Positions 10,978 through 58,314 of a stretch of DNA of 64,000 bases are shown here, in pieces. How positions within the stretch are numbered: the stretch's first letter is position 1; every line of letters begins with the position of its first letter. The DNA is from Viridothelium virens (lineage: Eukaryota > Ascomycota > Dothideomycetes > Trypetheliales > Trypetheliaceae): the NCBI GenBank assembly GCA_010094025.1, contig ML991808.1, positions 124,001-188,000 on the forward strand, in the 5' to 3' direction. The notes under the pieces were generated by a model. The model made no database searches. It was given only the letters and a program-made list of their open reading frames with translations, and had not been told where the DNA came from. The translations under genes and the position numbers were made by a program.

Positions 10978-13111
10978 CTAGAAGCCCGCCCAGAAATTGG
11001 CTGCCACGTCGCAAAGAAAATGGTATCGACGGCCGAGGAACACTATAAAAAGATGCACAACGAGAAGCAGCGTTGATTGCGCCCAGCTACTCCGCAGAAA
11101 GCCTAGGTCCAAGGCAGCTAAAGATGTCAGGGAATACGAGATAAATGCATTGGCTTGATATGGTGCACAGAGGTAGGACATAGTGAAGAGCTTTGCAAGG
11201 AATAATGAGATTCTTGCGACTGCGATCACATCATTCCGAGCCAGAAAGATTGAGAGGCGAGATGCCCGTGGTGGTGGCGGTGGTAAGATCAGGCGCGGTG
11301 AGGATGGGGTTCTTGAAGGGAATTGAGGCTTTGTGTCTATCTTATGAGGATGCAGAACGATACTCGACTCGCCGGCATCATCGCCATCATTGCCTTGATT
11401 TGTAGGCGGACTCGGCGAGCGCTGGTCTTCGGCATAGGCTCGCTTTAGTTTTGATGGGCCTGGTCTTAGATAAGGAGGCGACATGGGTCTTCGAGAATTG
11501 GTATTAGGTGACGGCGACGGCGATCCCACTGAGGTTATACGCGAGCGCCCGTCTTGGACACCGGAAGAATGCTTGTTGTATGCAGTAAACTCCTCCAAAC
11601 CGGAGCCTCCCTTAAGTGCGAGAAGGATTTCCTCTGCGCTTGGTCGTTCCTGAGGATCAACAGATAATAGTCGTTTCAAAAAGCGATATAGTCTCTCTGG
11701 AAGATCAGCTCGTGTCCGGCGCTCATCTTCAAAGCCTGCCCAGGCTGAAATCTCATCTCGAAGCTGGTCGAGGTCCTCGTTTTCTTCATTAAGGTCGTCG
11801 GCATTCATATAGGGCAACCGCCCGAAGCACATGAAATAGACAATCATACCCAGGGAGAAGATATCTGACTTGGTTGTAAAGTTTCCTAACGGACCTGTAG
11901 GTGATTCTCGGCGAAGGACTTCAGGCGCGCAGTATGAGATGGTTCCTGTTGCCCCCGTGGATTTCCGGTTCATGTTGACTGCTTGGACTTCACCAAAATC
12001 GCTCACCAAGACTCTGACCTTGTGTCCGTCGTCATGCAGCAAGCAGTTACTTGGCTTGAGATCACGGTGGATGTACCCGTTCACATGCAGGTAGTTCAAT
12101 GCAGACGTGATGTCTTTGACAAAAGTGAAGATCTCTTCAAAATGCATGTGTCGAGGTCCATGCAAATCTTGTGGGGGTTCGGCTTGGCCTTTTGACCTAC
12201 GCCGCAACCTCTCCTTGAGTTCCTGCGTCGTGACGGAAGACTTAGCCGAGTTGAGTATGTAGTGGTGGAGATCGCCCCCATTACAATATTGTTGCAGAAT
12301 GAACGCGCAAGGGACGCTTGGGCCGAACGCTGTGATCTGGCAGTCTTCAAGCCAGACATGACGATAAGAAACCAAATTTGGATGGGAGAGGTTCTGCAAT
12401 AGCTGTGCTTCCACCAGCACCTTTTCAAGCCATTCGTGATCGTCTCCAACGGGTACTCTTTTGCACGCAAAACGACCTAAATTGACTCCATCCAGAACAT
12501 GTCTGACTTGAATCACCACCCCTTTCCCGCCTCTGCCTAGTTCTCTCTCCTCCACAAAGAATGTTTTGAAATAATCTTTACTGAAGGCGGCCGCGGATAT
12601 ACCATGTGGAGATGGAGGCGATGCCGGTGAGCTTCCTATGAACTCAGCTCCCACGGGAGGTTCAGAATCAACGACATCATCTCGCGAATGAGGCTGGACT
12701 AGGCGTCTTCGAGGAGAGGGTGGTCGTGATGGTTCGCTCGAGCCTGGAGTACTGTGATGTAGAAGGCGGAAGTATTCAGGATTCACGAAACTGGCTTCAG
12801 CCCCATGTCCGGAAGGTTGTTCGCTGCGTTCAGACGTGCGACTATCTTCCCGCAATGGTCGATGACAGTAGGGACAATCGGCGAGTTCAACAGCTTGTGA
12901 TCGGGAGGCGTCTTTGAGGGAAAGTTGTCTTGACTCTTGGTCGTACACCACCACGGCTGAGCCATGGCGACTATTTGAAAGAACAGCCACAGATCAGCTT
13001 CATCAACAGTCTCGCTCCAGGTTCAGAGTCCTTCGCTTACAGTACAACTTCTCTCGAGTCTGGCTGATATGGCACTAATGACATACTTCGCTGCGGAACA
13101 TCATCCGCCAT
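10978..13111 (-). CDS. IKS1: Ser/Thr protein kinase, IKS1 type
   Basis: The long frame begins with GTG at 12990, so the true start lies in an upstream exon. I place it at 13111-13041 (starting MADDVPQRSMSLVPY), joined to 12970-10978 across a 70-base intron (donor GTAAGC, acceptor AATAG). This yields the continuous sequence REVVLRHGSAVVVYDQESRQ expected of fungal Iks1 and a protein of about 687 residues. A CPYC pair lies near the N-terminus. The kinase domain has LGRGGKGVV (ATP loop), FACKRV (catalytic Lys), YIHRDLKPSN (catalytic loop), SDFGEV (metal-binding Asp) and CAPEVL. After a Pro/Ser-rich linker, the last ~70 residues are hydrophobic (YQANAFISYSLTSLAALDL; LLLVVHLFIVFL), so the kinase is probably membrane-anchored at its C-terminus. 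Substrates are unknown; yeast Iks1 is linked to stress and drug sensitivity. Confidence 0.88.
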
Positions 13112-15467: not shown

Positions 15468-16283
15468 GGTGAATATCAGACTGATGGATGGGTAATCTTG
15501 TTGACAGGCCACTGAGGCTCTTTCAATACGGCGAAGAGCCGGATTTTGCCAAAGAGCGGTGGAAGAATACGGTATGGCCGACTACAAGTAGCCGCGGCTC
15601 TTTCCAGGGGGCATCAGGGAAGCTCTGGCCGAGTTCGCAGTGGTGCATGCGACAGCTGGTCCGGAGTCGAGGCCGGGCTATGAAAGTTGGAAGTCAATTG
15701 GGGACTGCAGGCTGGCTGATCACCCGGATGTCGATTACCGGATCGGTGGTGCCATGTGACGTCGAAGGAACATTCACGACAGACCTTGAGCGTATGCGAG
15801 ACGGCGCACAGTCGCAATTTAGGGACTCGTTGCGATATGGGTAGGTTCTAGGTGGATGGGAAGAAGAAGAGTCGCCTGCGAGCCGGGCCCCCACTCCGGT
15901 AGAATTTGGCAGAAAGGCGGTTTTGGTGTTGATCGACTTGGACGAGCCGCTGTACAATCGATACGATAGGGAGACGATCGCCCGGGCTGACGGCAGCTGT
16001 GAAAGCCATGCGGGTATTCTTTTGAGACCGCACGGCCCGGCAGCCAGGATTTTGCCCAAAGCACGGTGGCACTGTGGCACCACCAGCGCCGTGGCACCTA
16101 AAGTGTGGCGATTCTCGAGGATTCGCGCCAAACGCGGGGCACCAACGACGCGACGCGTGAACCCTGGCTCGGACGTGAGTGCTCGTGCTCCTACCATCGC
16201 CGTCTTTTTCAGAACACTGCTTTCTCGAAGGCCCATTTTCCGATCATGGATACCTAATACGCCTTTCTCACACTTGCATAGCC
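15468..16283. promoter_or_regulatory. Shared divergent upstream region of RIC8 and RIF1
   Basis: 816 bases between two ATGs pointing away from each other. Open frames here on both strands lack family similarity. GC-rich in the centre; no TATA box recognised. Confidence 0.45.
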
Positions 16284-19200
16284 ATGGCGTTTTCTCATGC
16301 ATCTTTAGACTCTCTTTCTGCTCGTCCTCCTACTCCTCCAAAAGGCCTCGATGAGGTCGAACAAGGCGTTGTCGACGCCCTTGAATTCCTAAAGAGTGAC
16401 CTCACTATTTCGCTATCCCAATCGAACAGCACGACTCGACCCAAGCTTCTCGATACCCCTCCTACAAGCTCGCCTCTTTCCTCCCAAGGTCAAAGGGGCG
16501 ATAGCTGTGAAGCAGCTCGAAAAGCCGCTGAGAAAAAGGTTGGCTTTTCGCCATGGCCAAATTACCATAGGCCACCGAACTACACTCTGAGAGACTGCGG
16601 ACTCTCGCCTCTCAAGCGGCTTCCGCCCTCTCGAGAACTCAGGTCATTCCGATCGATATTGAAACAATCACCGCAATCGGCTCTCCTCTCGTCCTCACAC
16701 CCCACTGACAATTCGGCATCCCTGGTTGCTGGGGACCCATTCCCAACTTTCGAAGCCATGCTTGACTGCATGCTGCAACAGCTTGAGCATGGGGATGAAA
16801 AGGCGAGGACAGATACATATGTGTCTCTTTGCGGCACACTTGGCGCTTGCGAGTGTCTTCCAGAAGAACCGGACGTGGGCGCATTGTACTCACATATGGA
16901 CAGATTGATGCAACACATCAGACGAGACTGTACATTTGCTGGCGGCGACAGCAAAGCGGCTGAGACTGGACTCATCGTGCAGTCACTCAAGCTGCTTTCT
17001 ATCTTCCTCCTCACTCCCACTTTGTCCAGAACTATCAAAGACGACGTACGGATCTTTGCAATCGAGAGATCGATTTCAGTCTTACGGGATCCTACAGCAC
17101 CGAAGCCAGTCATAAAACATTACATGTTTATGCTTTCACAACAAAAATTCAACTCGACTATTCTCACAACGGCTAGAGCGCAACGGCTCCTGGACAGCCT
17201 GCAGAGCATTGAAGAAAGGACGAAGGGCAACAGTATCATCGGAGGGAGACTCTCGATCTACCACAGACTGCTTACTCAAGCACGCTCTGCCTTCCTGTCC
17301 AAGATAGACGCTGTTCTCGAACACGTCTTCCATGGAATGCTTAGCAGCATTGGGGATATTCGAAAACGTGCCATCGATCTGGGTACTCAGATTGGTCTAA
17401 TTCTAGGAAAAAGTGGCCAGAGCCATAGGACTTTGGTCAATCATTTTGCGACAGTACTCGACTCCGAAAATCACTCAGATTATGGTTCATTCTATGCTGG
17501 TCGCCTTCAGAGCATGTTTCACAACAAAGATTGCCGCGAAGATGTCCCACGTATCTGGACGGTTGCCATACTTTTCTTCCAGAATCGCGGGCATAGAATT
17601 CCAAAATGGCCACACGTTCGCTCATGGTTTCGGATCATACAGCTCTGCCTCAACTGCAGTGATGCACATGTCAGGTTTCAAGCATACTTTGCATGGAATA
17701 GACTGATATCCGTTGTCTCTCCCAGTATGTCTACCACACAGGAAATGGTTAATATGCTCTTACAACCGCTATGCCTCCAACTGCGGCGTACCGAGAGTGG
17801 CAAAAGTTCTACTCAAGTCAAACAATTCGCGTTCTCGAGTTATTGCAATCTCTTATATTATTCTTTCCGACCCTCGAAATCTCCGGAGGAGCTTGAATAT
17901 TTCTGGGGCGTTTATGTTGAAAAGCAATTACCAGACCTACTCATGCAAGGTCACGAGTACATCGACAGAACAAACCAGATTCTATCAGCATTGTTCGGGG
18001 CTGGAGACCGCAGTTCATGGGATGAAGGTAGAGCGAACAATCCTGATTCGGTGAAGCCGCGAGAGCTTCCACAACTTAACACCAAATGGCTTCGGAGAAG
18101 GATCTCTGCCATCTTACCAATACTTGAACGGGTCTTTGAGGCAGACTGTCAGAGGGAGATTCCACTTGAAAACATGCCAAGCGCTCGAACCTGGGGACAC
18201 CTCATGGATGCTTTAGCTGACGCAGGCAGCCAAGAAGTTAAGGCATCATCCGAACTACGACAAGCTACGGCTCAAATCATCACGTCACTACATAGGCTTT
18301 GGAATAAGATCGTGTTTCCACGAGATCGCGAGTCTCTTCCTACAAAATCCTCGGTGGGCCTCTTCACGAGTTTGGCGTGTTCAGCAATGAGTAAACTTGG
18401 GTCGCTCCATTTCACTCAAAGGATCCTAGTCGAGAAGCATTCTGCTACGTTCGAAGTTGCGCCTTCACCTTCTCACCGCTCTCATAAATCTGCGAAACCA
18501 CTTCAATCTCCATTCCATTGCATCTATCGATTGATGGTTTCCTCACCTTTCTTCGGATCTTGCAGAGAAGTTGCGATGCTCGGACTTTCAAAACTAGTCC
18601 ACCTCGCCTACACTTCTCAAAACACCCTTCAAGCTAAGTTCAGTCTTTTGCAAGATTGTACGGATACTGCTCTCGATCCCCGACCACGCGAAGATGGAAT
18701 ATTTGCCTATGTCTGGCCAATCTTGGCAAATGAGACAAGAGAAGCCTTGTCCTCTGTGCCAATCATCCACCCTGGAACTGAACGACCCCTTGGACAGGAA
18801 TTGCGGATTGTAACAAGCATTCTCGTTGCTGCTCTTCGTTCAGACACGCAATCATGGTCTGCAAGTCAGACTCTGTTCGTAGAGCTTGTCAATGCTGCTA
18901 GGAATAAAGCTAGTGCTTTGGGTGAGGCGCGAACCGCCATGGAGTCGCTCACTCAAGCACTCGGTAGCTGCAAGATGAGCTTAAACGATGATAGTATCTT
19001 ATTCTGTACTTCGCTGATCTTGGGAAAGAGCTATCGAAAAGAAGACCCGCAGCCACTAGCACTGGAACAACGGACAGCGTGGGACTGGATGTCAAAGAAT
19101 CAAGATGAGCAAGTAGCCGAATCCTTTGAAGAGATCTATTGCCTGATAGATGAATCGCTGAAACGGTGTTTCCGGCCGGACCAGCTCGAATGTCAGCCGT

Positions 19201-21981
19201 TCATCCATGAGTTTCTATCGTCCTTGATTGGATTCATCGACTCCGCTCCTCTGAATTCTAAAGCCACTGTCCTTTGCAGAATACAGGATGGATTAGCATC
19301 TATGCTGGAAGATGCTGGAGATTTGTGCAATGAGGCGAACGATATACTCCAAATGGTAGGTTCATTCCATATCCGGTTTTTTAGGTGCTGACAGAAGTGT
19401 AGGAAGTGGAGCTATGGTTGGCAGTCAATAAATCTCTGCGAGACCTTCCATGTCATGATGATCTACTCTTGAAGAGTCTAGCTCCTCTTATCTCTGCTGG
19501 ATTTGGTAGTCGTCACAGGTGTTTTTCCTCAATGTTAGTGGATACCTGGAATGATACGTTTGGGAGGGCAGAGGGATTAGAGTATCCCAATCCGGTTGAA
19601 TTTGCTTTACGGCAATTAGGGCCGCAACTCGATATCCGCCATCCGAACTTTTCGTATAACGACGGTGACAGGGTAAGCGATGCATTCCATTCTATTCTTC
19701 GCAGCTGATGATATAGGCTTGTGCAACTCCTGCGGACATGGCTGGATCTAGTCATAACGCCGGGTCAAATGGGTCAAACAGATTTGGGCAGGCTTTAGAA
19801 GAGCCCAACGAAGTGACGGTGGAGCAGAGTCCACATCCGCTCAGAACGATCAGCAGCGAAGAGCAAGCTCCAACACCCGCAACTCGCAGGATATGTTCGC
19901 CTATTAGACCAACTCCCAAAGCACGCCTAAAGCACAATGATTCTCAGATCGAATTCGCTGTGATTGAGTCTTCTCCCACAAATTATGAGGCAATGGAGTC
20001 ACAATTACTAACAGAGCATCAGAAGGAGGTGCGGTCGCAACAGCAAGCTGAAGCGGCGGCAATGTTTCCGGATATTCGCTCGGGCTCAGTCTCGAGGGCG
20101 AAGCAGACGCGTGAGCTTACAATCAACAATACCGTTGCAGATTTTGAGGAGGCTGCGACTCCCTCCCCGCACCTTGAGCCTATGGATGACTACTTGAGCT
20201 CATCTCCCACGCCTGGCTCTGCTGCCAAACGAGAGTTGATCATGCGTGATGAAATCCCGTCGAGCTTTGATCAGGAGAGGAGAGCGTCTCATAATAGCAA
20301 CGAGGAAGAAGAGCCACCTTCCTCACCGCCAGAGCGGATTGGCGAAAGCGATGAAACACGAGCACGGCATTCTGGAGAAGACGAACAAGCGTATATCGAA
20401 TACGCTCTGCAGGAATATGTTGACTTATCTGCCGGGGAGGCCCTGGCGACCACATTGGACACGGTTGGCGTAAAGAAGGATCCAGCCGACCCTGAGCAAA
20501 GAGCTTCGATACAGGCGTCCCCGTCGCTCTCTGGCGAAGTGGAGATAACCGATGCTAATGCTGAGAATGTGCCCTTTTACCGCGAAATGTACGACGAACA
20601 TGACGGTCGAACAAGTGGCAATGAAGTAGAGGAACAAAAGATCACCGACGGAGACCAGAATGCAATAGGGTTTGATCTCCCTGGATATTCGATGCCAGAA
20701 GATCAGGCTCGGGGCTTGGGACCAATGGATGCGGCCGCAATGCATACGGAGATGCAAACTGAACCAGAGACTTCCCGGGCCAGGAATGAAGCATCTGTCG
20801 ATGCACCATGCGTGATAAGTGATCAAGTATCTGACACAGCAGATGAACCAGAGATCTTTGTAGACGCGTCTCAAAGCCCGCTACAAGAGGGCGTAGAAGA
20901 TCTAGACGACACTACTCCATCAAGGAACGACAAACGTCAACCACAAACTTTGATACCGGATCTCAACGATCAAGACAACCCCCAAACAAGCGATTTGGCC
21001 GATGTTTGCGATTCTTTTCTCATGGGGACAAAGCAAACACAGCTAGAGGCTTCTACGCACAAACCGGAGTATTTTGAAACGCCTAATTCACCAACGGAGA
21101 GTCCGCAAGACTGTCAGACATCTGATGAGGATGTAGCTGGACAAACCAAGCGCAAACGAAGCTACCAAGACCCAAGCAAGACCGGCAGGCCTACAAAAAG
21201 GCGAAGGTCACGTCCTCTACAGCCCATCGATGCAAATTCACAGACTACAGGAGACGACGAAATTCAAGACTGCATCACTGTGCTGCCTCCTACCTTTGCA
21301 TCTGTCTTAAAACGCCGGGGATCCACACGCAAATCACTAAGTAATCAATCATCTGTTCGGCTTGCGAAACAGCAAGAACAGCCTTCTAAATCGACATCAA
21401 ATTACATCCATTCCGAAGACGGTCTATCGCGGCATAAACGCAAGATGCCTTCTTCATCGCCTCAAGAGGACAAGCCCATCAAAAACTTCCGAAGCGGGGG
21501 AGGTCCCATCAAGGTTGACCGTAATACCGTCGACCACCAAATCGAGAAGAACAAAACAGAAGAGGAGCCAATACCAGGCAGCATGAGATTTAGTCATGTG
21601 GAGATCGAAACGAGTCAGCATCGACGGGGAGCGTCTACGGAGCCAATATATGAGGATGTTTTCTACAGCTCGAGTGCAGATGACAGCGATGGAGGTGTTT
21701 CAGTGGGTGCCACCGAGGACGTTGATGCAGAGCGTCGCACAGCAGGGAGGGCACATGCAGAGGATGCGGAGGCGCGACAGCAGCTTGTCTCGGAAGAGAA
21801 AGCGGCACAAGCCGCACGACGCATTGCGCAACCAAAGAGCATCATCGAACGGTTGAAGGGAGTCTTGGCGGATTGCAAGGGAGTGATATTCGGATCTCAA
21901 GACCGGTTGCAGGTGTATGATACATTAGCGGAGCTGCAGGCGGAAGTGGTAAGGCGGAAAGACGGTGAAGGCGAGCATTAG
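16284..21981 (+). CDS. RIF1: Telomere length regulator / replication-timing factor Rif1
   Basis: Three exons, 16284-19355, 19403-19672 and 19717-21981, separated by introns of 47 and 44 bases with phase-0 junctions; about 1,868 residues. The first ATG with good context is at 16284 (the frame runs further up only from a GTG). Residues ~160-1130 form the alpha-helical Rif1 N-terminal repeat region (QLEHGDEKARTDTYVSLCG, ILERVFEADCQREIP). Two likely PP1 docking motifs sit at the N-terminus: KVGF (85-88) and SILK (124-127). The C-terminal third is acidic and low-complexity, with KRKRSYQD/PTKRRRSRP basic patches that could be nuclear signals. Rif1 recruits protein phosphatase 1 to chromatin to restrain origin firing and acts at telomeres and breaks. 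The motifs support that role here; DNA binding is by family. Confidence 0.85.
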
Positions 21982-25860: not shown

Positions 25861-28800
25861 TCAATATCCACTGTTTCTCCTGGACCTTCCACTCGCTAAG
25901 CTTTCCCCATCCGTCACAATGCCCTCCCACGGCAAGTCTTCATCTTCCTCATCACTGTAGAAGCCATCCGGCAAGCCTCCAGCTCCCTTCCTCACCCCAA
26001 ACCCAACACTCTTCTTCACCTTCCCGGCCGCCGTCTCCTTCCCTCCCTTCTTCCCACCTCCAGCCACCGCCTCCTTCACCGCCTCCCCCAACGCATTCCC
26101 AGGATCAATCCCCACACTCTGCAACGTCTCATCCAGACTCCTCCCCTCCTTCCCCCCCAACCTCGCTCCATCCACCCCAATCAACCCCTCCGTCTCCTCT
26201 CCCTCTCCGTCTCCCTCCCCTTTCAACCCCTCCAGCACATCATAAAGCGCATAAACAACCTCACTCCTCCTCTCCACCCTCGCCACCAACTCCTCCACCC
26301 TCCTCGCCAACACCACCCGCCTCCTCTTCCCACGACTCGGATCCGTGGCCGCATACGCGCGCTCCGCCTCGCGCAGCTCCGCCTTCGTATGCGCCACCTC
26401 GTCCTCCGTGCGCGCGATCGCCGCGAGCAGCGCCTGCCGCGGCGGCTGCGACGGCCGGATCGTCACGTCTTCGGTGTTTTCTGCTTGGCGCTGCTGCTGG
26501 GAGACAGGGACGACGGTGAAGGAGGCGAGCGCGGCGGTGGTGGTTGCGGAGGCTTTGGCGGCGGCGGCGGAGCGCGAGAGGAGGTGCGGGCAGATGGTGC
26601 AGGTGGTGGGGTCGTGGGGGCAGAGGGAGTTGAGGACTTGTTTGGCTTCGGAGGAGAGGGTGGGCCGCTCGTGGCTGCTGCTGCTGTTGTTGGGTCCGGC
26701 TTTCTGGGGGTGCAGCGTGATGTCTGGGAGGATGAAGGCGGAGGTCATTTCTTCGAAGTCGTGGAGGCCGCTGTTGCGGTGGCGGCGGGAGGTCTTGCTT
26801 GTGGTGGAGTCGATGGTGTTGTCTTGAGTATGCTTGGCGCGAGTGGTACTTGATGAACGACGCTGGCGACTTGTCGTGTCGTCTTCGTTGCGTTGCTTGT
26901 CTCTCGATTTGAGGTCGCTGGTTGCACCACTGGTAGAGCGTGTGGCTGCATTGCCAGCAGATGCTTGGACGAAGTCCTTCATTGCGCTTTTACGCCTGGG
27001 AGCCTGGATATCGGTTTTCTCAACAGTCCCAACAGAACGAGTGGTCTCGGCATGTTCGTCGTGATACTGGGCGGCCATGGCACGAGCCTCATGCAATGCC
27101 TTCCTTTCCTCTTCGAGAGCAGCGCGCAGCTTGGCAATATCATCTCCCTCAGTGAAGCTCTGGGCTGTCACGTCAATTTCCGAGTTTTGGGTATGATTCT
27201 TCTGATTCTCAGCCTTCATAGTGTTACCCTGCGCATGAGATCCTTGCTTCACGAAATCAAGGTCCGTGGTAGATTCGACCTCGCTCGCAGAATCGTCGCT
27301 CGCTTCTCGCATTGGCTGAACTGCAATCGGTTCCTGATGCTCAGCTGTTTTTGCCTCTCGAGGTCCTCCAATCTTATCACTTGCAAACTGCGCGTGATGG
27401 GAGACTCGCTTCTTTGGTGACGCGATCGTAGGACGATTGCCACCATCAGACCTCGTCCGACGAAGCTCCTGCTCAATGCGGTCTGAGATCTTAGTTTGCG
27501 TGTCTTTTTCAATCTTGGCACTGGCACGCCGAATGTTCGCTGGAAGATGCTGATTTTTGTAGCCTTGTACGTTTTGCAGCTCTTGCGTTTCGTTTCTCGC
27601 CGAGAGTAGCTCTCGAGTAAGCTCGCGTGCTTCCTTGACAGCGTCGTCTTTCTTCTGAATTCTTGAGCGGAGTCGCTCCTCCTTCTTCGTCCAGTTCTGA
27701 GTCTCTTCCTCATGGTGCCCAAGCAACTTTGCCAACTGGTCTCGCAATGCTTGGTTCTCAGCACGAAACGCATCATTTTCTCTCATCAGGATGTCATTTT
27801 CCTTCTCAAAAGAACCAATTTGCGCCTTAAAAGATTCGATGTCGCGCTTTAATTCTTCGACGTTGAAGTAAGCAACGCCTAATTGCGTGACAAGGTCATC
27901 GCGCTCCTGCGTCATGCGCTTGACTGATATATCAGACAATGAGTTTTGTTGCTCGGCCTTGTCTAAGCGTGTCTGTAATGTCTTTAATGAAGACTCGAGT
28001 TCTGGTAGATATATCAGCATGACTGTACTTCATAGTAGCCCAAAATGCAACTTACTGGCTCGTTCAGTCTTCCGCTTCGAAGGTCCTCTGCCTTCATCGT
28101 CTGTAGTACCAAGACCACTATCGTTGTGTCGGATCTCCTTTTGAGCCTGGGCTTGAGAACGTAGCTCAATGATCTCGTTCTCGTATTTACCAAGCTTCTG
28201 ATCCTTTTCATCCTTCTCAATCTCAAGCTGAGCTACTTTATCTTGGAGGAGGTGCAGTGATGCAAAAATGGCTTTTTCATCATCTGGCATAGGAATGCCG
28301 TCGATCGGAAAGTGCACAGGTTGGGAGCCCTTTGGAGTTGCGCGGTTTGAGCTTGAAGCAAAGCGAGAACGAGCCCTGGGTGTACGTGAGAAGACTGGAG
28401 TCCCGTCGGCGCGAACACCAGAGACAAGCTCTGTGATATTGGGAAGATCTGGGAGTATGAAGGACTGCATTGTACCGGTCCCTACGGCAGCTTGTGGATT
28501 TGTTGATATACTATGCTGAACACGCCTAGGCGTTTCCATTCTATTTGCACCCAGGTTCAATCCATTTTCACCGCTGGTACTATTTGGAATGGCGTTACTT
28601 GGTACTGGGTTGTTTCGAATGCTGCCGAATCGCGTGCTCTTAGTCAGAGTTGCAGTAGGCTGAGGACGCTCCTCGCTCATATAGGACCCATCATATTCGT
28701 CCGTGACCCTCGCATGCATATGTGCAAGCGTGCTTGGCTTTCGCGTATTTTCGGATTTATTTGTGCCTGGGGAAGGTCCATCGATAGGCGCGGAAGGTAC

Positions 28801-29382
28801 GCGAGGTTCTGCTGTCACAGCAGCAGACGTGCGTCTCGGTGGTGGGTCTTTCATCACACTCCCTTTGGCTCCATCATTCTTCGCTTTTCCTGACGGGCGC
28901 GGTTTTCCTGGGGGAGTTGCCGTGAGCTCCCAAAGACTGTTGTCACCCATAGAAAAGACGATGTTCTCAGTTGGATCTTCAGATGGCAAGTTCTGATTAG
29001 GGGTATTTTTCGAACTGCGCCGGTTGCCACGTCCCAACTCAATAGACATAGAGCTCTCGGACGACCCGTCCTGATCACCGAGAAGTCGTCCCGCAGCATC
29101 CACGTCGATATAGTAGCCATCGTCGAGGTAACGGTATCGAGCATTATTCTGCATTGTATTACGTATGCTTGGTAAGGCTTGTTGGGTCGAATTGTCCATC
29201 TGACGAGTCGAATTTAAAGCTTCGTTCTCGGGGTCGAAGGAAGAGGTAGTGACATCGTTACCGGTCTCGCGCTCAGCATTTGAGCCCGCATCTGAATTGG
29301 AACCTCGAGTACGGACGCGATCTTGAGTCAGGTCGCGAATGATTCGAGCCCGCTGCTGTTGAGCAGATGGTGAGGGCGCCAT
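25861..29382 (-). CDS. Spindle pole body coiled-coil scaffold, Ppc89/Cep57-like
   Basis: Two exons, 29382-28056 and 28001-25861. A GTAAGT donor at 28055 could pair with a TACAG only 33 bases on, but the in-frame CCAG at 28002 gives a normal 54-base intron and a continuous coiled coil (ERAKLESSLKTLQTRLDKAE). The product is about 1,155 residues. Layout: disordered N-terminus; a short SFILPDLPNITELV motif; coiled coil ~residues 380-560; a second, similar SAFILPDITLH motif; then the segment LSSEAKQVLNSLCPHDPTTC with CTIC, typical of the C-terminal region of fungal spindle pole body proteins with a Cep57-type microtubule-binding domain (S. pombe Ppc89, Aspergillus SnaD). The role would be to scaffold the microtubule-organising centre. 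The C-terminal third is encoded by pyrimidine-rich plus strand, which creates long false antisense frames. Confidence 0.75.
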
Positions 29383-29938
29383 GGTTTGCTCTATGGTCTC
29401 CCAGCTGCTTGCATGTGACAGGAGGGAGGATATTCAATTTACTGGGGAAGAATGTAATCGCTCGGGTTGCATGTGAATTTGCTGTGGATTAGTAGACGTG
29501 CATACAGACAGTGCTTTCTGTCGCGCGACTGCCCAGATGGGAGAGCAAACCAAGTGGGAGATTTGGTGGAAAGTGGTGCTGCATTTGTTTACTGCTGTTG
29601 TTTTGGGAAATAGCGTCGCTGGACCGTGCATGGCGGCGCTCGTAACCACCGATGTCAGTCTAAACTGCCGCACCCCTACTCTACAGGCACGTGCCATATA
29701 GCACACCAATCTCACAGAAAACTTCTTAACTTGCACAGTATAAGTGGGTGATGAATCTCAGAATCTCGTTGTTCGCAATCAAAGAATATGCTTGTGCGAG
29801 CATCAGACTAAAGGAAAAGCTACGAAGCCATGTCTAGAGGCTCTCCAAGAGCGAGTGAAATCTACAATCCTTTCCTTGTGCAGATGCTCTCCGCCAAGCT
29901 TGAACACCTCCGATGCGAGTCCATGCAGAGGCAAAGAT
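29383..29938. other. Intergenic between the spindle pole gene and REI1
   Basis: About 556 bases; both neighbours are on the minus strand. No gene-like frame is convincing. Confidence 0.3.
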
Positions 29939-34225: not shown

Positions 34226-35963
34226 TCACGATCTTTTACGGTGTCTACATGTGCTCGCTTGTTTACACCATATCGACACCTTGAAACAGCTGCACGGACG
34301 AGCGAGAAGATACTTATCGAAGCTATCGCGTTGCGAATGCCTAAAGGCGGAGCTCCACCGAAAATGTCGGGCTTCCGGGCAGCGGCTACTGTCTACTGTT
34401 AGAGTACCCGAGACCCTTTGACGAATAAACGCAAAACTTCTTAGCTCACCTGTTCGTTGGGTACTGCGCCGAAACATTTTGTTATCAGTATTGTTCACTT
34501 TCTTTGATCTTGGTTCATAGTGCGATCCTTCCAGCTTCCAATATGGCGCTTCTTCTTCGGATTCCCGAAGGGCTCCGAAACCGGGGTTGAAAGAGAAATC
34601 TGACCCTTCGTCATCCTCCATTCGAAATTTAGACGGTTGTCCCACTTTGAGCGCATGACTCTGATGATACATTGAGTTCTTTAATACTGCCAGTTGACGC
34701 TCCTGATCCGGCAAAGGGTCTCTAGCAGACAAATCTAAATCTTGAAAATGCGGCACTGTTTTCATAGTCTCCGTAGCTGAGATAGCGCTCCATCTCGCCG
34801 ATGCCTCTGGGATTGACACTGTTCGAGGTTCTCCTTTCTCTAGTCGAAGGCGGTGGGCAACCGACAATAGATTGGAAGCGGAGTCTCTTTGAATATCGAT
34901 ACTAGGCCGCTTCATCCAAGAATGAAGAAGGGCGTCACTTGTATTTATCCGAAAATGGGGATCGACGGCCATCAGGGCAATGACGAACCGAGTTGCATCG
35001 TCTCCGGCACAAGATCTGAGCCGCTCCGAAGGGAACTCATTTACGCCTCGACAGTAGTCTCCAAGCAAGTCTAGACTTTGAAAACGTGTGCTCGCCGGTC
35101 AACATTCGAAAGACAATCTCTCCCAAAGCCCACATGTCTGCCAGCTGGGGGTCACCGCGGTTCGGAGCAGACGTCGAACGAACGAAGCCCAGCATCTCTG
35201 GCGCCATAAATTCCAGCGTACCTTTGACTGTCGAAGGCGCGTTTCTATCTCCCGCACGCTTGCTAATCCCAAAATCAGTAAGTTTCACCCACCAAGCCTC
35301 CGGTGGTTGCGATTTAATGAGGATGTTCTGGCGCAAGATAATCTATAAGCTGATGTACCTCTGATATGTTGGAGTGAACCTACTCACAGCTGGTTTCAAG
35401 TCTCTGTGGGCAAATCCATTCTCATGCATATCATGTAGGCCTTCAAGTATTTGACGTGTAAGCTCCTGAGCCTCTTCCACAGCCAGCGAAGACATTCGAG
35501 AAAGGTAGCGGTGGAGATCGCCATATGGGCAATATTCTAAGGCAATATAGATTGCTTCTGGATCGTCATACCAGCCGAAGGATTTCACAAAGCAGGCCTC
35601 GTACTAGGATGCATTAGCCATTTATAGTACCTTTCAGGAAGCAAGCCCTTGATTTACCTTAGCATTTGAAAATTTCGCGACTGCCTCCAGTTCTCTACGA
35701 AAATCAAAAGTGCTCGACGAGTTTGAGAGGTTTCGGACCATCTTCACCGCGCGCAGTTGGCCCTCATTGCTGCCCTTGACGCATTTCTCCAGCCAAACTC
35801 GCCCAAATGATCCATGCCCAAGATCTTTTTCCCGCTTCCAGTATTCTTCGCGAAGGACGCGTCGCCGGCTGCCACTGGCTTCGAGGTAACGGTGGACCGT
35901 GTGGCCATTGATGTGACGAGTCTCAAGTTTGGAGTCGCGTACGAGATCAGGCACTGCCGGCAT
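34226..35963 (-). CDS. Ser/Thr protein kinase, active-site residues present, frame shifted once
   Basis: Exons 35963-35658, 35603-35388 and 35327 onward, with introns of 54 and 60 bases; the second acceptor is chosen because it gives HRDLKPANILIK. Kinase motifs: LGHGSFGRVWLEK, RAVKMVRNL (catalytic Lys), FAHRDLKP (catalytic Asp), LTDFGISKR (DFG), GTLEFMAPEM. Within the third exon the frame changes at a run of four A on the plus strand (35081-35084): one frame reads LTGEHTFSKS, the other continues FQSLDLLGDYCRGVNEFPSE, the expected continuation of the C-lobe. With no possible intron there, this is a one-base shift (real mutation or sequencing error). The ~200-residue tail has no known domain; a possible 54-base intron near 34400-34450 keeps frame either way. 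The start is also open: in-frame sequence extends ~13 codons above the ATG at 35963 to a TTTAG acceptor. Head-to-head with the HeLo-like/pseudokinase gene. Confidence 0.7.
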
Positions 35964-36430
35964 TACGCTTTCAATCCTTGTGGGCCTCTCTTCAAACGGG
36001 TTCTAAAGTGACACTGTGTACCAACTTACTATATGAAACACGTCCTTTCGTGCAACCTTGACCGGGCCCTGAGGCACTCAAAGGCCGACACCCCCTTGGC
36101 TCCTACTCCTGAGTTAGCTACAGTGTAGCGTATACCGTGATCTCAGGATATCACGGTAGCACCGAGTAATAGGAGTTGGCATAGGTATCAGCATCTCCCG
36201 GTAAAGCGCGAATAGTGATTATCAAGACAACAGCACCAGCAGCACCACGAGGTATTTCATATGACAAGGCTGAGGATGCGATGGGGCTGGCTCTGAAACT
36301 TTTGATTGGATAATTTCGACATGGGCAGGTTGTGGCGTATTATGCCACGACCGACGAACATTACAATCTCCAATATCTGCCCAAGTGGTCCCTTCTCCCG
36401 GAATGTTTCCTATGACTGAACCCTACCGTC
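35964..36430. promoter_or_regulatory. Shared upstream region of the kinase and HeLo-like genes
   Basis: 467 bases between divergent starts. Includes a GATATCACGGTA-type inverted/direct motif near 36135-36155. Possibly contains a short 5' exon of the kinase gene. Confidence 0.35.
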
Positions 36431-38070
36431 ATGGCTGGTGTAGATCTCGCACTTGCCACTGTGGGTGCAGTAGACGTGACATTGAGGTGAGACAGGCTTC
36501 AGCGGCTCCGCCTACTTGTTAGCACCATGAATCTTTCGTAATCTAATCCTTCGCAGATACGGCAAACTTCTTATAGAGACTTGCCGTGCATTCAAACATG
36601 CCGAGGAAGAAATACGTGAACGAGCGCTTCATATCGAGAGCTGCTGGAAGCGCACGAGCTTGCAGCTGGATTTCCTCTGTCGGGTTTGGGGAGAGCTTGA
36701 TCAGGAACATCAGTCCATACAAAATGAAATCTTGACTGTTCTCAACGAAAAACTGAGGTCTGCAGATCAGAAGTTGAAGAGCTATCTCAAAGAACAGCAG
36801 CCTCCTACCAATGTGATTACTGACCGCACGCAGTCTCATACTGGAAAGGTGAAGAGATTCAAGTACGCATCATTGAAAGAGTCTCTAGACAGGACCATCA
36901 GAGACTTGGAGTCGTGGCAGAAGATGTTTGATCCCTCGTGGTTCCTTATCATGAGAGTTGCAAGCCAGCATGTCGACATGGAGTTGGATCGAAGCCACCA
37001 GGCCAGTCCAATGATGACAACCGCTTCCAGCGTTCGCGATTCATTGAGGGAACATCCCCAGCAACCTATCTCTGTGTTTCTACCAGAAAATAGACTTTAT
37101 ACGGCTCAGTTCACAGACATACCATTTAGCTCAGCGAAATTATTGCATTGGGCAGATTCTACCAGATGGTTTCTTGTCGATCCAATTTCGTGCGATTCTC
37201 GCTTGGAATTCGATCAGCGGAGGAAGGCGGTCCGTGACCTGGCCAGGAAGCTGATGATAGTTGAGCCAACAACGTTTGCGCTCCTGAAATGTGTTGGCGC
37301 TGTTGCAAACACATAACATGAGTTCCTGCTAGTCTTTAAAACGCCAGATAAAGCCTTTATTCCTCAGACCCTACGAACCACTCTATTGTTGAGAGGTACA
37401 CACCACTCGCTTCCCGAGAGACTTCGACTTGCTACACAACTCTCGAGGGCAATCTGCTCCATCCATACATTCGGCTTTGTGCACAAGAGTATTCGGCCCG
37501 AGAATATCATGCTGTTCCAGGACGAGGACTCGAAACTAGGATCTGCCTTCCTTCTAGGATTTGAAAAGATCCGTCTTGAAGAAGGCGGTACAAAGTTAAG
37601 AGGTGATAATGCTTGGGAGAAGAACCTATACCGACACCCTGAACGGCAAGGTGTGGACTTCCAAGCATCGTATGTCATGCAGCACAACATATATAGCCTC
37701 GGAGTTTGCCTACTAGAGATTGGCCTTTGGCAGTCTTTCGTGCATTACAGCGGCACAGACTCGGAGCATGCTGAGCCAGGAAATTATGAGTTTTCCGGAG
37801 AAGCGGAGTCCGTCAAGAACGAACTAATTGCTTTAGCCAACGAGAAGCTCCCGAGTTATATGGGGAGTAAGTATGCGATGATCGTCAAGACTTGTCTTAC
37901 TTGCTTGGATGAGGGAATTGAGGATTTCGGAGATGAAGATGAATTGCAGGATGAGGATGGTGTTTTGGTTGCTGTGAGATACATAGAAAAAGTAAGTCAC
38001 CATGAACATCTCATCTGAAACCAGCTTACGGTCCAAGGTTCTTCTCCAACTTAGTAGTATTTCAGTATAA
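36431..38070 (+). pseudogene. HeLo-like helical domain plus pseudokinase protein (fungal cell-death effector type), apparently broken
   Basis: The helical half runs from the ATG at 36431 through a 70-base intron (36487-36556) to about 37000. It starts MAGVDLALATVGAVDVTL and continues as amphipathic helices (YGKLLIETCRAFKHAEEEI, SLKESLDRTIRDLESWQKMF), the pattern of fungal HeLo (HET-S N-terminal) domains. The kinase-like half (about 37330-38070, with a 46-base intron near the 3' end) keeps the fold but not the catalytic residues: FGFVHKSIRPENIML replaces the HRD loop and LLGFEKIR replaces DFG. It therefore reads as a pseudokinase. The gene looks broken about once between the two halves, so it may be a recent relic. 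HeLo domains are membrane-acting four-helix bundles related to the MLKL bundle; a cell-death or immunity role is inference. Its neighbour is an active-looking kinase, transcribed away from it. Confidence 0.6.
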
Positions 38071-39091: not shown

Positions 39092-39184
39092 GGGGGGTTT
39101 ATTTGCTCTGAAACTTGAGTATTACTCGAGCTTGAATCCAAGTCAATTCCAAGTCAATTCCATCTGATAACACAAACAATCAAT

Positions 39185-40918
39185 ATGCCTCATAGAGACA
39201 GTTTCCGGGATTCCCTTGTCTGTGGTATATGTGGCGTGACTGACCACAACTATGAAAGATGTATTCGCTTTTTCAGAGAACGTAAATACTCAACTGACCG
39301 TGTACCACCCGGCTTAGTCAAAATCCGTCATTTCGACGGGACCGATTACTTTTGGGATATTGGACACCATTTATTGCTTTCGGATTGCAAAGTCCGAGAG
39401 GATCAAGAGAATAGCTCCACTGATGAAAGCGATGTGGTCAGCCTCGTAGAGAGCTGTCACATTCAAGACCATGATTCTCAACTTAACTACGGAAAGGATT
39501 CTCAAGGGATTGCAGATACTCTTGGATCTTTTGCATTCTCTTCTCAGAAACCCAAACCGCAAAACGGTGCGCAAGGGACGAACCTGTACCCGTTCAACTC
39601 TGCTCTAAGCCTGAAATATCTTTCGGATGCCGTTTTCCCAGAGCCTTTGCACCAATGGCGAGAAGACAATCGAGTTGCCACTCTGTTTGAGAAGCGAGAC
39701 ACCAGTGACGGACCTGATACCCGCGATTACCCAAACCTGGCTTGCCTCAACTGTGGCGCCCTGAAGGAGCATCAGGCGCAGTGGAATGGAGCAAATCGAG
39801 GACTCGTGTTCAATTTTCATCGGACGGGCCCTGATGACTGGTTCTGGTATTTTGGCTCCAAAGCAATCCTAAAAGAGACAGAACACAAGAATTATGTTGG
39901 AACCCAAGAGGCTGCTATCAACTACGTTAGAGAGCATACCACGATTCCTGTCCCTGCTTGGATTCGCGAATGGCATGAAGGCAACCGGTGCGTGAGCTTA
40001 CAGGACCGACTACCTGGCATTGATCTGGAGGTCGCTGCTTGGGGGCAGTATACTGGTAGCAAAGATGCAATTTTAGATGATGAAGAAGTTCAAGCGGTAT
40101 TTGCTGAAGCCGGTGTATATATGAAGCAGCTGCACGCATTGACATCACCGCGGCCCGAAACTGCGGACGGAAGATTGATGCGCAACATGCCCTTCTGGAG
40201 ACACGTCCCTAAGGCTCATTGGTTCCTGCCACAGTCGCACGAAGAGGCCGTTGAAGATTGGTATCAAAAGTCACTCACCGGATTCTCGCAGGAGGATTTG
40301 CCAGAGCTCGACCGCCTCCGAGAAACTTATCCCCGCGGGGAACCCTACGTCTTTATTCATGGAGATTTGGCTCAGCCGAATATCTTGGTCGGCCCGGACA
40401 AACATCTGAGCGGTATTATTGACTGGGAGTTTGCGGGATTTGCTCCGGTATGATATGAATAACTAGTGTGAAATTATGAGTACAGGTACTGAAGAAGACA
40501 ACAGGAATGGTGGGACCGCAGAGCTGCATGCATTGGGGTATTTGAGGAGGAAGAGGCGCCTAGAGCTGCCATGGAGTGGTATTTGTCGTGGGAAAACCTC
40601 TTTCAACCAGGCTGGTCCCGAAGCTTATGGGCCGCAAAGAGACGGCGACACCCGTATAATCGCGACAAGGAAATACAAGAAGCAACAGATGAGGGCTGGC
40701 GGCGGCAGCTTCAAATAGTAGAAGATGAAGACCGTCGAATGGAAGCAAAATGGAATGCAAAAGTGATAGCGCGTCAACTTCCACCCTACCCCGAAAGCAT
40801 GCAGGACATGTACCCGCCGAACCACTACATGGATGAAGAGGGAAACTGGATTGAATTTGACACGAAACCAATGTACGAGCTTCCAGAATTTGATGTTAGC
40901 CGATGTCGTCTGCAATGA
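39185..40918 (+). CDS. APH-fold phosphotransferase with Cys-rich N-terminal extension
   Basis: Two exons, 39185-40447 and 40505-40918, with a 57-base intron (GTATGA..AACAG) that joins FAGFAP to EWWDRR in phase 0; 558 residues. The C-terminal ~320 residues are an aminoglycoside-phosphotransferase/choline-kinase-like domain: GTQEAAINYVREHTTIPVP; VSLQDRLPGIDL; FIHGDLAQPNILV (Brenner motif with catalytic Asp and Asn); and IIDWEFAGFAP (metal-binding Asp). Key residues are complete, so it should be active on some small molecule or protein; the substrate is unknown. The N-terminal ~200 residues are unusual: two similar modules, CGICGVTDHNYERC...DYFWDIG and CLNCGALKEHQAQW...DDWFWYFG. Each has a CxxC and a DxFWxxG motif, suggesting an internal duplication of a small zinc-knuckle-like unit. 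It lies inside the putative insertion. Confidence 0.85.
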
Positions 40919-57046: not shown

Positions 57047-57324
57047 CCTTGCGTGAGTTTAATTAGACCTGGTCAAGAGATCATCTTAAGGAATATGGAC
57101 TAACCAGAATATTGGAAGCGTCTGCTTAATCAAGTAGAATCCTTTGATAGGCAGTGACAAGCTAACCTCGAATGGAATCGGCTCTGTGACCCACACTCAC
57201 GCTGTAGCAAGCGAACGCAGTGTACTGCTTTGAATCATACCTGTCCACGATTGTGAGTGAAGAAATTATTTTTGGGACAGGATATTATGGCTAATGTCCC
57301 CAATTATCAGTCAAAGTTCAAACC

Positions 57325-58314
57325 ATGACCGATCATGCTAAGCTTTCAGCGAGCAATACGGCAAGCAACGATACGAAAACCATCGAGAACGAAAAATACG
57401 AAATAAGAGATTCTGATCCACTGTTCGATAATCTTGATTCGGTGGAAGAAAGAAACCACAATCGCAAAAGCCGTCCAGTTTGGTTCAAATACAAGCCTGT
57501 GCACAATCTTCAAAGCACCCCCAAAGACAAAATTGCAATCAAGGCCGTTAAGGCTGGCATTCGAAGACTCCAATTTGTCGGGCATTGGGCTATTCAAGTC
57601 GGCAGCTCCCAGGAAACCGATGACAAAATAGTATATATTTGGGAACTATGGCAACATCCGAACACCCATGAAATTTACCTCGGAGAGCAAAACCGCGGTC
57701 CTGTCAAATGGACCAATCTTCGCGTGATCCAAACATCGACTGGAAAGGTGTTTAAGACCAAAGAGACACTGAAAGATTCGCACTGGTGGCACAAGTGTGG
57801 TAACACCACGATGACTGATCTTGAGATCCGCGACAAAGCAATACACATTATCAACAATCTCAGCACAGAGGACCTTGGTCCTCTCGACAGACTTATGAGA
57901 TGGCGGGCTCTGGCAGAACTAAAGGTCATAGAACGTTTGTTTGGAAAACGGGCACGCGGTGCAGCAATATCGATATTTGGGTTTCAGGGAAAGCTTCAAT
58001 CGGAAATTGTTCGACGGATTCGGGGTAAGACATCCGACGATGAGTGGCGGTATGATTTGTTCTTCAGAAATTGTCAGATTTTTGCCAAACGGCTTGCTGT
58101 GGAAATTTGCAACTCTAAGCTCCGATCCAGGCTTTTTTTCCTTCCAAGAGTGAGCGCAAGAAAATGGCTCTACAGTTATTTCACTGAAGGCCCGATGCCT
58201 CAATCCCTTCAGCAAACCTTGACTAACAATCAGCAAGCCTGGGCTAACAATCAGCAAGCCTTGGATATCAATCAGCAAAGCTCGGTAATCAATTCGGCAA
58301 CCCAAATACAATAA
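57325..58314 (+). CDS. His/Asn-Cys (LRAT/NlpC-like) protein with NQQ repeats
   Basis: Single exon, 329 residues, ATG start. A His in FVGHWAIQVG (His87) and an NC pair in LFFRNCQIFAKRLA (Cys250) are arranged as in permuted papain-like/LRAT folds (H-x..NC), with a beta-strand EIYLGEQNRG between. This fold catalyses thiol hydrolysis or acyl transfer in other families. The match here is by motif only and the spacing (163 residues) is long. The N-terminus is polar and disordered. The C-terminal tail is repetitive: LTNNQQAW / ANNQQAL / DINQQSS. Possibly a fungal orphan with enzyme activity on lipids or peptides; function is unknown. Confidence 0.6.
   Translation: MTDHAKLSASNTASNDTKTIENEKYEIRDSDPLFDNLDSVEERNHNRKSRPVWFKYKPVHNLQSTPKDKIAIKAVKAGIRRLQFVGHWAIQVGSSQETDDKIVYIWELWQHPNTHEIYLGEQNRGPVKWTNLRVIQTSTGKVFKTKETLKDSHWWHKCGNTTMTDLEIRDKAIHIINNLSTEDLGPLDRLMRWRALAELKVIERLFGKRARGAAISIFGFQGKLQSEIVRRIRGKTSDDEWRYDLFFRNCQIFAKRLAVEICNSKLRSRLFFLPRVSARKWLYSYFTEGPMPQSLQQTLTNNQQAWANNQQALDINQQSSVINSATQIQ
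58222..58284 (+). repeat. 21-base in-frame tandem repeat
   Basis: Three consecutive units with core CAATCAGCAA encode (T/A/D)(N/I)NQQ(A/S) at the C-terminus of the preceding gene; the first two units are near-identical, the third is diverged. Confidence 0.85.

Follow-up and report, generated by a model that had tools for sequence, protein, structure and literature searches.

In a 64,000-nucleotide stretch of the genome of the ascomycete Viridothelium virens (contig ML991808.1; hereafter the window, whose numbering is used throughout), two divergent fungal genes of broad known kinds lie head to head. The minus-strand gene encodes a kinase of the CAMK group with all catalytic motifs, the plus-strand gene joins a predicted helical N-terminal half to a pseudokinase half, and each gene appears to carry one break in its reading frame. 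On balance, we lean slightly towards considering the plus-strand gene as MLKL-like when intact, and its kinase neighbour as accidental rather than functional. If the breaks are neither sequence errors nor unrecognised introns, the strain probably lacks both functions. The animal necroptosis pair consists of RIPK3 and MLKL, and an earlier note, made from the letters of this DNA, had proposed that the two genes form a pair of the same sort.

In the mechanism that we favour, the pseudokinase half would sense a signal, either a bound partner or phosphorylation, and would restrain the helical half. The helical half would cause cell death by acting at a membrane with its hydrophobic N-terminus. The minus-strand gene, for an active-type kinase akin to RAD53, CHK2 and DAPK, has a product that might phosphorylate its neighbour. 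As to the breaks, the stop at codon 272 would leave a product made of the helical half with some of the N-lobe, and the frame of the kinase would be lost inside the C-lobe. Membrane action, cell death and loss of function are what we infer as most likely; the order of the genes, their motifs, the frame breaks and the group of the kinase are shown directly. The features on which the analysis is based are as follows.

35963 (minus) and 36431 (plus): start codons of the divergent gene pair; intergenic region 35964-36430, 467 bp from start codon to start codon
34529-35963, minus strand: gene for a CAMK-type serine/threonine kinase, placed by Pfam Pkinase, the RAD53 alignment, exon ends and codon scores; true 3' end uncertain
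35963-35658, 35603-35388 and 35327-about 35,085, minus strand: kinase exons; from there the domain is read in a different frame, at least as far as about 34,529
35076-35091, minus strand: loss of the kinase frame after the LTGE motif of the C-lobe, placed by the frames read and the RAD53 alignment on both sides
36431-38070, plus strand: gene for a helical N-terminal half and a pseudokinase; exons 36431-36486, 36557-37991 and 38038-38070
36431-37085, plus strand: predicted helical half with a hydrophobic opening; HeLo-like identity putative
37314-37316, plus strand: in-frame TAA at codon 272, within the N-lobe of the pseudokinase and crossed by the alignment to BRAF

The two start codons bear out the head-to-head layout with 467 bases between the genes that had been described before. 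The upper end of the region as first drawn, 38070, coincides with the final base of the plus-strand gene's spliced stop codon, and the lower end, 34226, probably lies too far out: the kinase reading past about 34,529 has a codon score of -0.117, and the stretch beyond is probably non-coding. Down to 34,529, all six gene segments have positive codon-usage scores and each is the best among the three frames of its own strand, but the scores are weak, and that of the helical half is matched by one antisense frame (0.061 antisense vs 0.055). Past the plus-strand stop the frame stays open for 225 codons (chance probability about 2e-5), which is evidence of coding frames beyond chance. The intergenic region contains a 12-nt inverted repeat (36133-36158, 11 of 12 positions paired, arms 2 nt apart), which may be a regulator site or due to chance.

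The minus-strand kinase

The motifs GHGSFGRV, RAVKM, HRDLKP, DFG and APE are spread over the three kinase exons, in agreement with the complete catalytic set noted earlier. The exon pieces match Pfam Pkinase with E values of 2e-16, 3e-15 and 0.0013. For the search of solved-structure sequences, an X was placed at the break and matches were accepted up to an E of 1e-10, yielding 872 distinct sequences. The best 60 of these are all CAMK- or AGC-type, led by RAD53 (5.4e-31) and CHK2 (4.6e-25), then DAPK1-3, STK17, RSK, CAMK1D and a calcium-dependent kinase, with no RIPK or MLKL among the same 60. The RAD53 alignment covers nearly the full domain, across both sides of the break. By its motifs (Lys, HRD, DFG, APE) and best matches, the kinase thus belongs to the CAMK group.

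CHK2 and RAD53 carry an N-terminal FHA domain. Pfam, at E up to 1, lists none for the exon-1 piece of the kinase, which is therefore not simply a CHK2, and upstream of the kinase start there is no minus-strand open reading frame (ORF) of at least 80 aa between 36002 and 36543. The resemblance to RAD53, CHK2 and DAPK lies in the catalytic motifs and the near full-domain alignment, while the missing FHA listing and the frame lost in the C-lobe set this gene apart.

The pseudokinase half

The plus-strand protein has HKSIRPEN at the expected HRDLKPEN site and LLGFEK at the expected DFG site, so that, as had been noted, its kinase fold is without the HRD Asp and DFG. When the part after the stop is searched alone, Pfam returns DUF7580 (PF24476; E 1e-5, over 168 residues of the C-lobe), with 25.8 bits against a curated cut-off of 27, which is thus not reached. 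Pkinase on the same part gives an E of 3e-5, with 24.0 bits against a cut-off of 31.7. DUF7580 is similar in its C-lobe match, and differs in that the match is below the cut-off and the helical half lies outside it. No paper on DUF7580 was found in the open-licence literature searched.

A longer query, with the N-lobe added and an X at the stop, was compared with solved structures at E up to 1. Its best 60 of 324 matches include BRAF (4.4e-5), rhoptry kinase (1.5e-4) and RIPK1 (3.9e-4), and do not include MLKL. The matches to GCN2, StkP and further kinases are about as weak as those to BRAF and RIPK1; the similarity to RIPK1 falls after the stop, and that to BRAF crosses it.

According to the part of PMC5104457 that we draw on, human MLKL has GFE in place of DFG, and HGK as its catalytic triplet. 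In the protein studied here, GFE stands at about the DFG site and is the same triplet as in human MLKL, which is suggestive only, as the local HMMER alignment places a gap at GFE and pairs AFLL with the DFGL of BRAF.

The helical half and its identity

The first 18 residues of the helical half are hydrophobic, with a mean Kyte-Doolittle value of 1.56, and together with the domain order this agrees with the pattern of MLKL and of fungal HELL proteins. HeLo and HELL domains act at membranes via an N-terminal helix, as described in the portions of two sources used here (PMC12881547; PMC10197012).

Several results weigh against an MLKL-like protein and should be considered together. The hydrophobic stretch contains two Asp, and its amphipathic moment is low (0.08). 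For the 193-residue helical half, Pfam at a limit of E 10 lists no HeLo, HeLo-like or MLKL family, although most matches weaker than about E 0.1 are discarded by the filters of HMMER, and a phmmer search against solved-structure sequences at E up to 10 returned 0 matches. The only Pfam listing is GNC1_N, at the chance-level E of 0.14. An AlphaFold2 model, made from the single sequence of the exon-2 part (176 residues, without residues 1-19), has a mean predicted local distance difference test score (pLDDT) of 69.7 and a predicted template modelling score (pTM) of 0.34; this low-confidence model has one 78-residue helix and four shorter ones with no clear bundle, and a Foldseek search with it at E up to 10 gave 0 matches. 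The 478-residue exon-2 read-through model has a mean pLDDT of 35.5. For the other half, the whole protein scores 23.1 bits for DUF7580 against the cut-off of 27, and the best solved match of the post-stop part alone is a rhoptry kinase (9.7e-5), meaning that the likeness to BRAF and RIPK1 is not specific. Of the "HeLo-like helical bundle" proposed earlier, the helical prediction therefore stands, and the HeLo-like identity is neither demonstrated nor refuted by the predicted structure and is missing from the sequence-profile matches.

These results give weight to another explanation: the protein would not execute cell death, and its helical half would be a helical domain of an unrelated kind that serves dimerisation or as a scaffold. 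We regard this as a serious possibility, if a somewhat doubtful one. It accounts for the lack of a listed HeLo-family match and for a predicted long helix that finds no Foldseek counterpart. However, a model built from a single sequence at such a low pTM can say little on this point, and the protein follows the MLKL/HELL pattern in its domain order and its hydrophobic N-terminus.

The nature of the breaks

The spliced plus-strand reading has 507 codons before its final stop, among them the in-frame TAA at codon 272. In the kinase, the remainder of the domain (FPSERLRS..DDATRFVIALMAVDPHFRINTSDALLHSWM) continues in a different frame after the break. The number of breaks is thus about one per gene (frame loss near 35,085 and TAA at 37314-37316), as had been stated before. 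Since the frames are open downstream of the breaks, any loss would be recent, or the sequence is in error.

The breaks are probably real, with a chance that they are not which is minor but should still be taken into account. If they are not, both genes would be intact, and the breaks would be assembly errors or missed introns. Introns at this locus are indeed short: the four modelled in the two genes measure 46, 54, 60 and 70 nt. Within the set length limits, 15 frame-keeping GT-AG candidates with open frames, all containing a loose branch-site pattern, would span and remove the TAA, and 12 candidates restore the kinase frame, one of them with the donor of kinase intron 1, GTAAAT. Both frames also remain open past the breaks. 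Nonetheless, none of the 15 candidates at the stop and the 12 at the kinase break is convincing. The donors of the stop-spanning candidates do not resemble those found in the modelled introns (GTGAGA, GTAAGT, GTAAAT and GTGAGT), and the candidates would remove sequence that aligns with kinases. For example, the 43-nt candidate at 35044-35002 with the GTAAAT donor has an open frame but deletes VNEFPSERLRSCAGD, inside the stretch aligned to RAD53. Long intact genes nearby, such as one of 1070 codons at 16179-19391, speak against a high error rate. Overall, we consider intact genes unlikely, yet not negligibly so.

In the same window, the frame of a Cep57-like gene (25861-29433) is interrupted by a stop that would be accounted for by a 54-nt GTAAGT..CAG intron. 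In-frame stops in this DNA therefore need not be breaks, and this should be counted in favour of intact genes. A very short intron is also probable in the Rif1 gene, at 19356-19411, with a GTAGGT donor and with AG acceptors at 29 to 56 nt.

Repeat-induced point mutation (RIP) was considered as the cause of the stop and rejected, the composite RIP index being -0.57 for the locus itself and below zero in every one of the 32 two-kb blocks. The breaks had also been taken as a sign of a polymorphic incompatibility locus; nothing in the analysis supports this, and breaks alone do not indicate such a locus.

Surroundings and relatives

The Pfam scan of the window covered 25 of the 46 ORFs of at least 170 aa and three shorter kinase pieces; 21 ORFs were left out, several of which overlap longer ones. 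Gene content and short introns suggest that the DNA is from a filamentous fungus. The scanned pieces match diphthamide synthesis, NUP, a kinase at 10978-12990, Ric8, Rif1, short-chain dehydrogenase, Cep57, zinc finger, GFA, APH, aldehyde dehydrogenase, GH92 and P450. For these 28 pieces, Pfam lists neither a NACHT or NB-ARC family nor a HET or HeLo one, and in part of the scan 8 of 20 pieces matched nothing. The APH-family phosphotransferase ORF (39119-40450, E 4.5e-17) lies downstream of the plus-strand gene, so that genes of kinase fold stand close together here. Near the end of the ORF at 57295-58314, which has no Pfam match, a tandem 21-nt repeat of about three copies (58209-58293) encodes protein repeats of seven residues with a high content of N and Q.

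Scans of viral contigs and genome contigs, neither collection being fungal, revealed no close relative; the only locus returned, from the viral contigs, is a kinase locus at 27% identity and E 2e-4. A tblastn search for paralogues within the window gave only weak matches besides the genes themselves, the best being to the kinase near 12,000 (28% identity, E 3e-7).

Comparison with known systems

The fused helical and pseudokinase architecture is already known. The Fig. 6 legend of a 2025 review mentions fusions of HeLo-like domains with a kinase or pseudokinase domain and names no gene (PMC12881547). Like these fungal HELL-kinase and HELL-pseudokinase proteins, the plus-strand protein combines a helical N-terminal domain with a pseudokinase half; it differs from them in that its helical half has no Pfam HeLo/HELL match. 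As presented in the sections of the same review considered here, amyloid templating from NOD-like receptors (NLRs) triggers HeLo/HELL proteins, and a broader exploration of fungal HeLo and four-helix-bundle proteins is urged (PMC12881547). For a linked pair of a kinase and a HeLo-pseudokinase, or for a linked kinase as the switch, we found no description in the open-licence literature searched.

With MLKL of animals, and also with plant MLKLs, the protein shares a helical N-terminus followed by a pseudokinase in which DFG is replaced, probably by the same GFE. The two differ in the catalytic triplet, which is HKS here and HGK in MLKL, and the four-helix bundle is only putative here. The minus-strand kinase is comparable to RIPK3 in being an active serine/threonine-type kinase beside an MLKL-like architecture, and differs in kinase group and in the absence of any RHIM-like pattern: a simple six-frame pattern matches the window at just two places, 15696 and 11568, both outside the two genes, and a simple pattern for a PP-like motif finds none in either gene.

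The likeness to RIPK3-MLKL proposed earlier thus holds in part. What stands is an active-looking kinase beside a helical-plus-pseudokinase protein with the MLKL domain order and weak BRAF/RIPK1 similarity; the CAMK group of the kinase, the missing RHIM or PP-like pattern and the missing HeLo match do not fit. As an analogy, it draws on domain order and one degenerate motif.

A two-gene module of cell death or allorecognition would take the analogy further: the CAMK kinase would phosphorylate the pseudokinase half and free the helical executioner, and the breaks would mark a polymorphic or decaying allele. The head-to-head starts, an active kinase adjoining a pseudokinase and one break in each member would all be expected for such a module. 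However, the kinase is CAMK and not RIPK/TKL among its best 60 of 872 matches, neither gene has the RHIM or PP-like pattern, and the window pieces scanned include none of the NLR-type, HET or HeLo families named above, for which reasons we find the module improbable.

Just as hard to credit is an arrangement in which the pseudokinase half or the CHK2-like kinase is a sensor, or a decoy for a host kinase attacked by a virus or a rival microbe, with the helical half as the death output and no need for phosphorylation of the neighbour. The part of PMC12258605 used here reports that in Sordariales 9 of 12 PKinase-bearing NLRs have a C-terminal kinase close to CHK-2, proposed as an integrated decoy, and this offers another possible meaning for a CHK2-like kinase near a death protein. 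The kinase is indeed nearest to RAD53/CHK2 among solved structures (best 60 of 872). However, the gene here is not an NLR, no FHA is listed for the kinase exon-1 piece, and the similarity to RAD53/CHK2 may mean only membership of the CAMK group.

Finally, we give very little credence to a fungal RIPK3-MLKL-like switch built from different parts, in which a CAMK-type kinase would phosphorylate the linked helical-pseudokinase executioner, and fungi would have come to lytic death triggered by a kinase on a separate path.

What the locus could mean

An MLKL-like plus-strand protein with a neighbouring kinase that is there by accident remains the explanation we prefer. The locus should be considered as a lead on the question of linked kinases, which one broken copy cannot answer. 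If it were true that a linked kinase switches fungal helical-pseudokinase executioners, then fungi would have a parallel to the kinase arm of necroptosis as well as to its amyloid and bundle arms.

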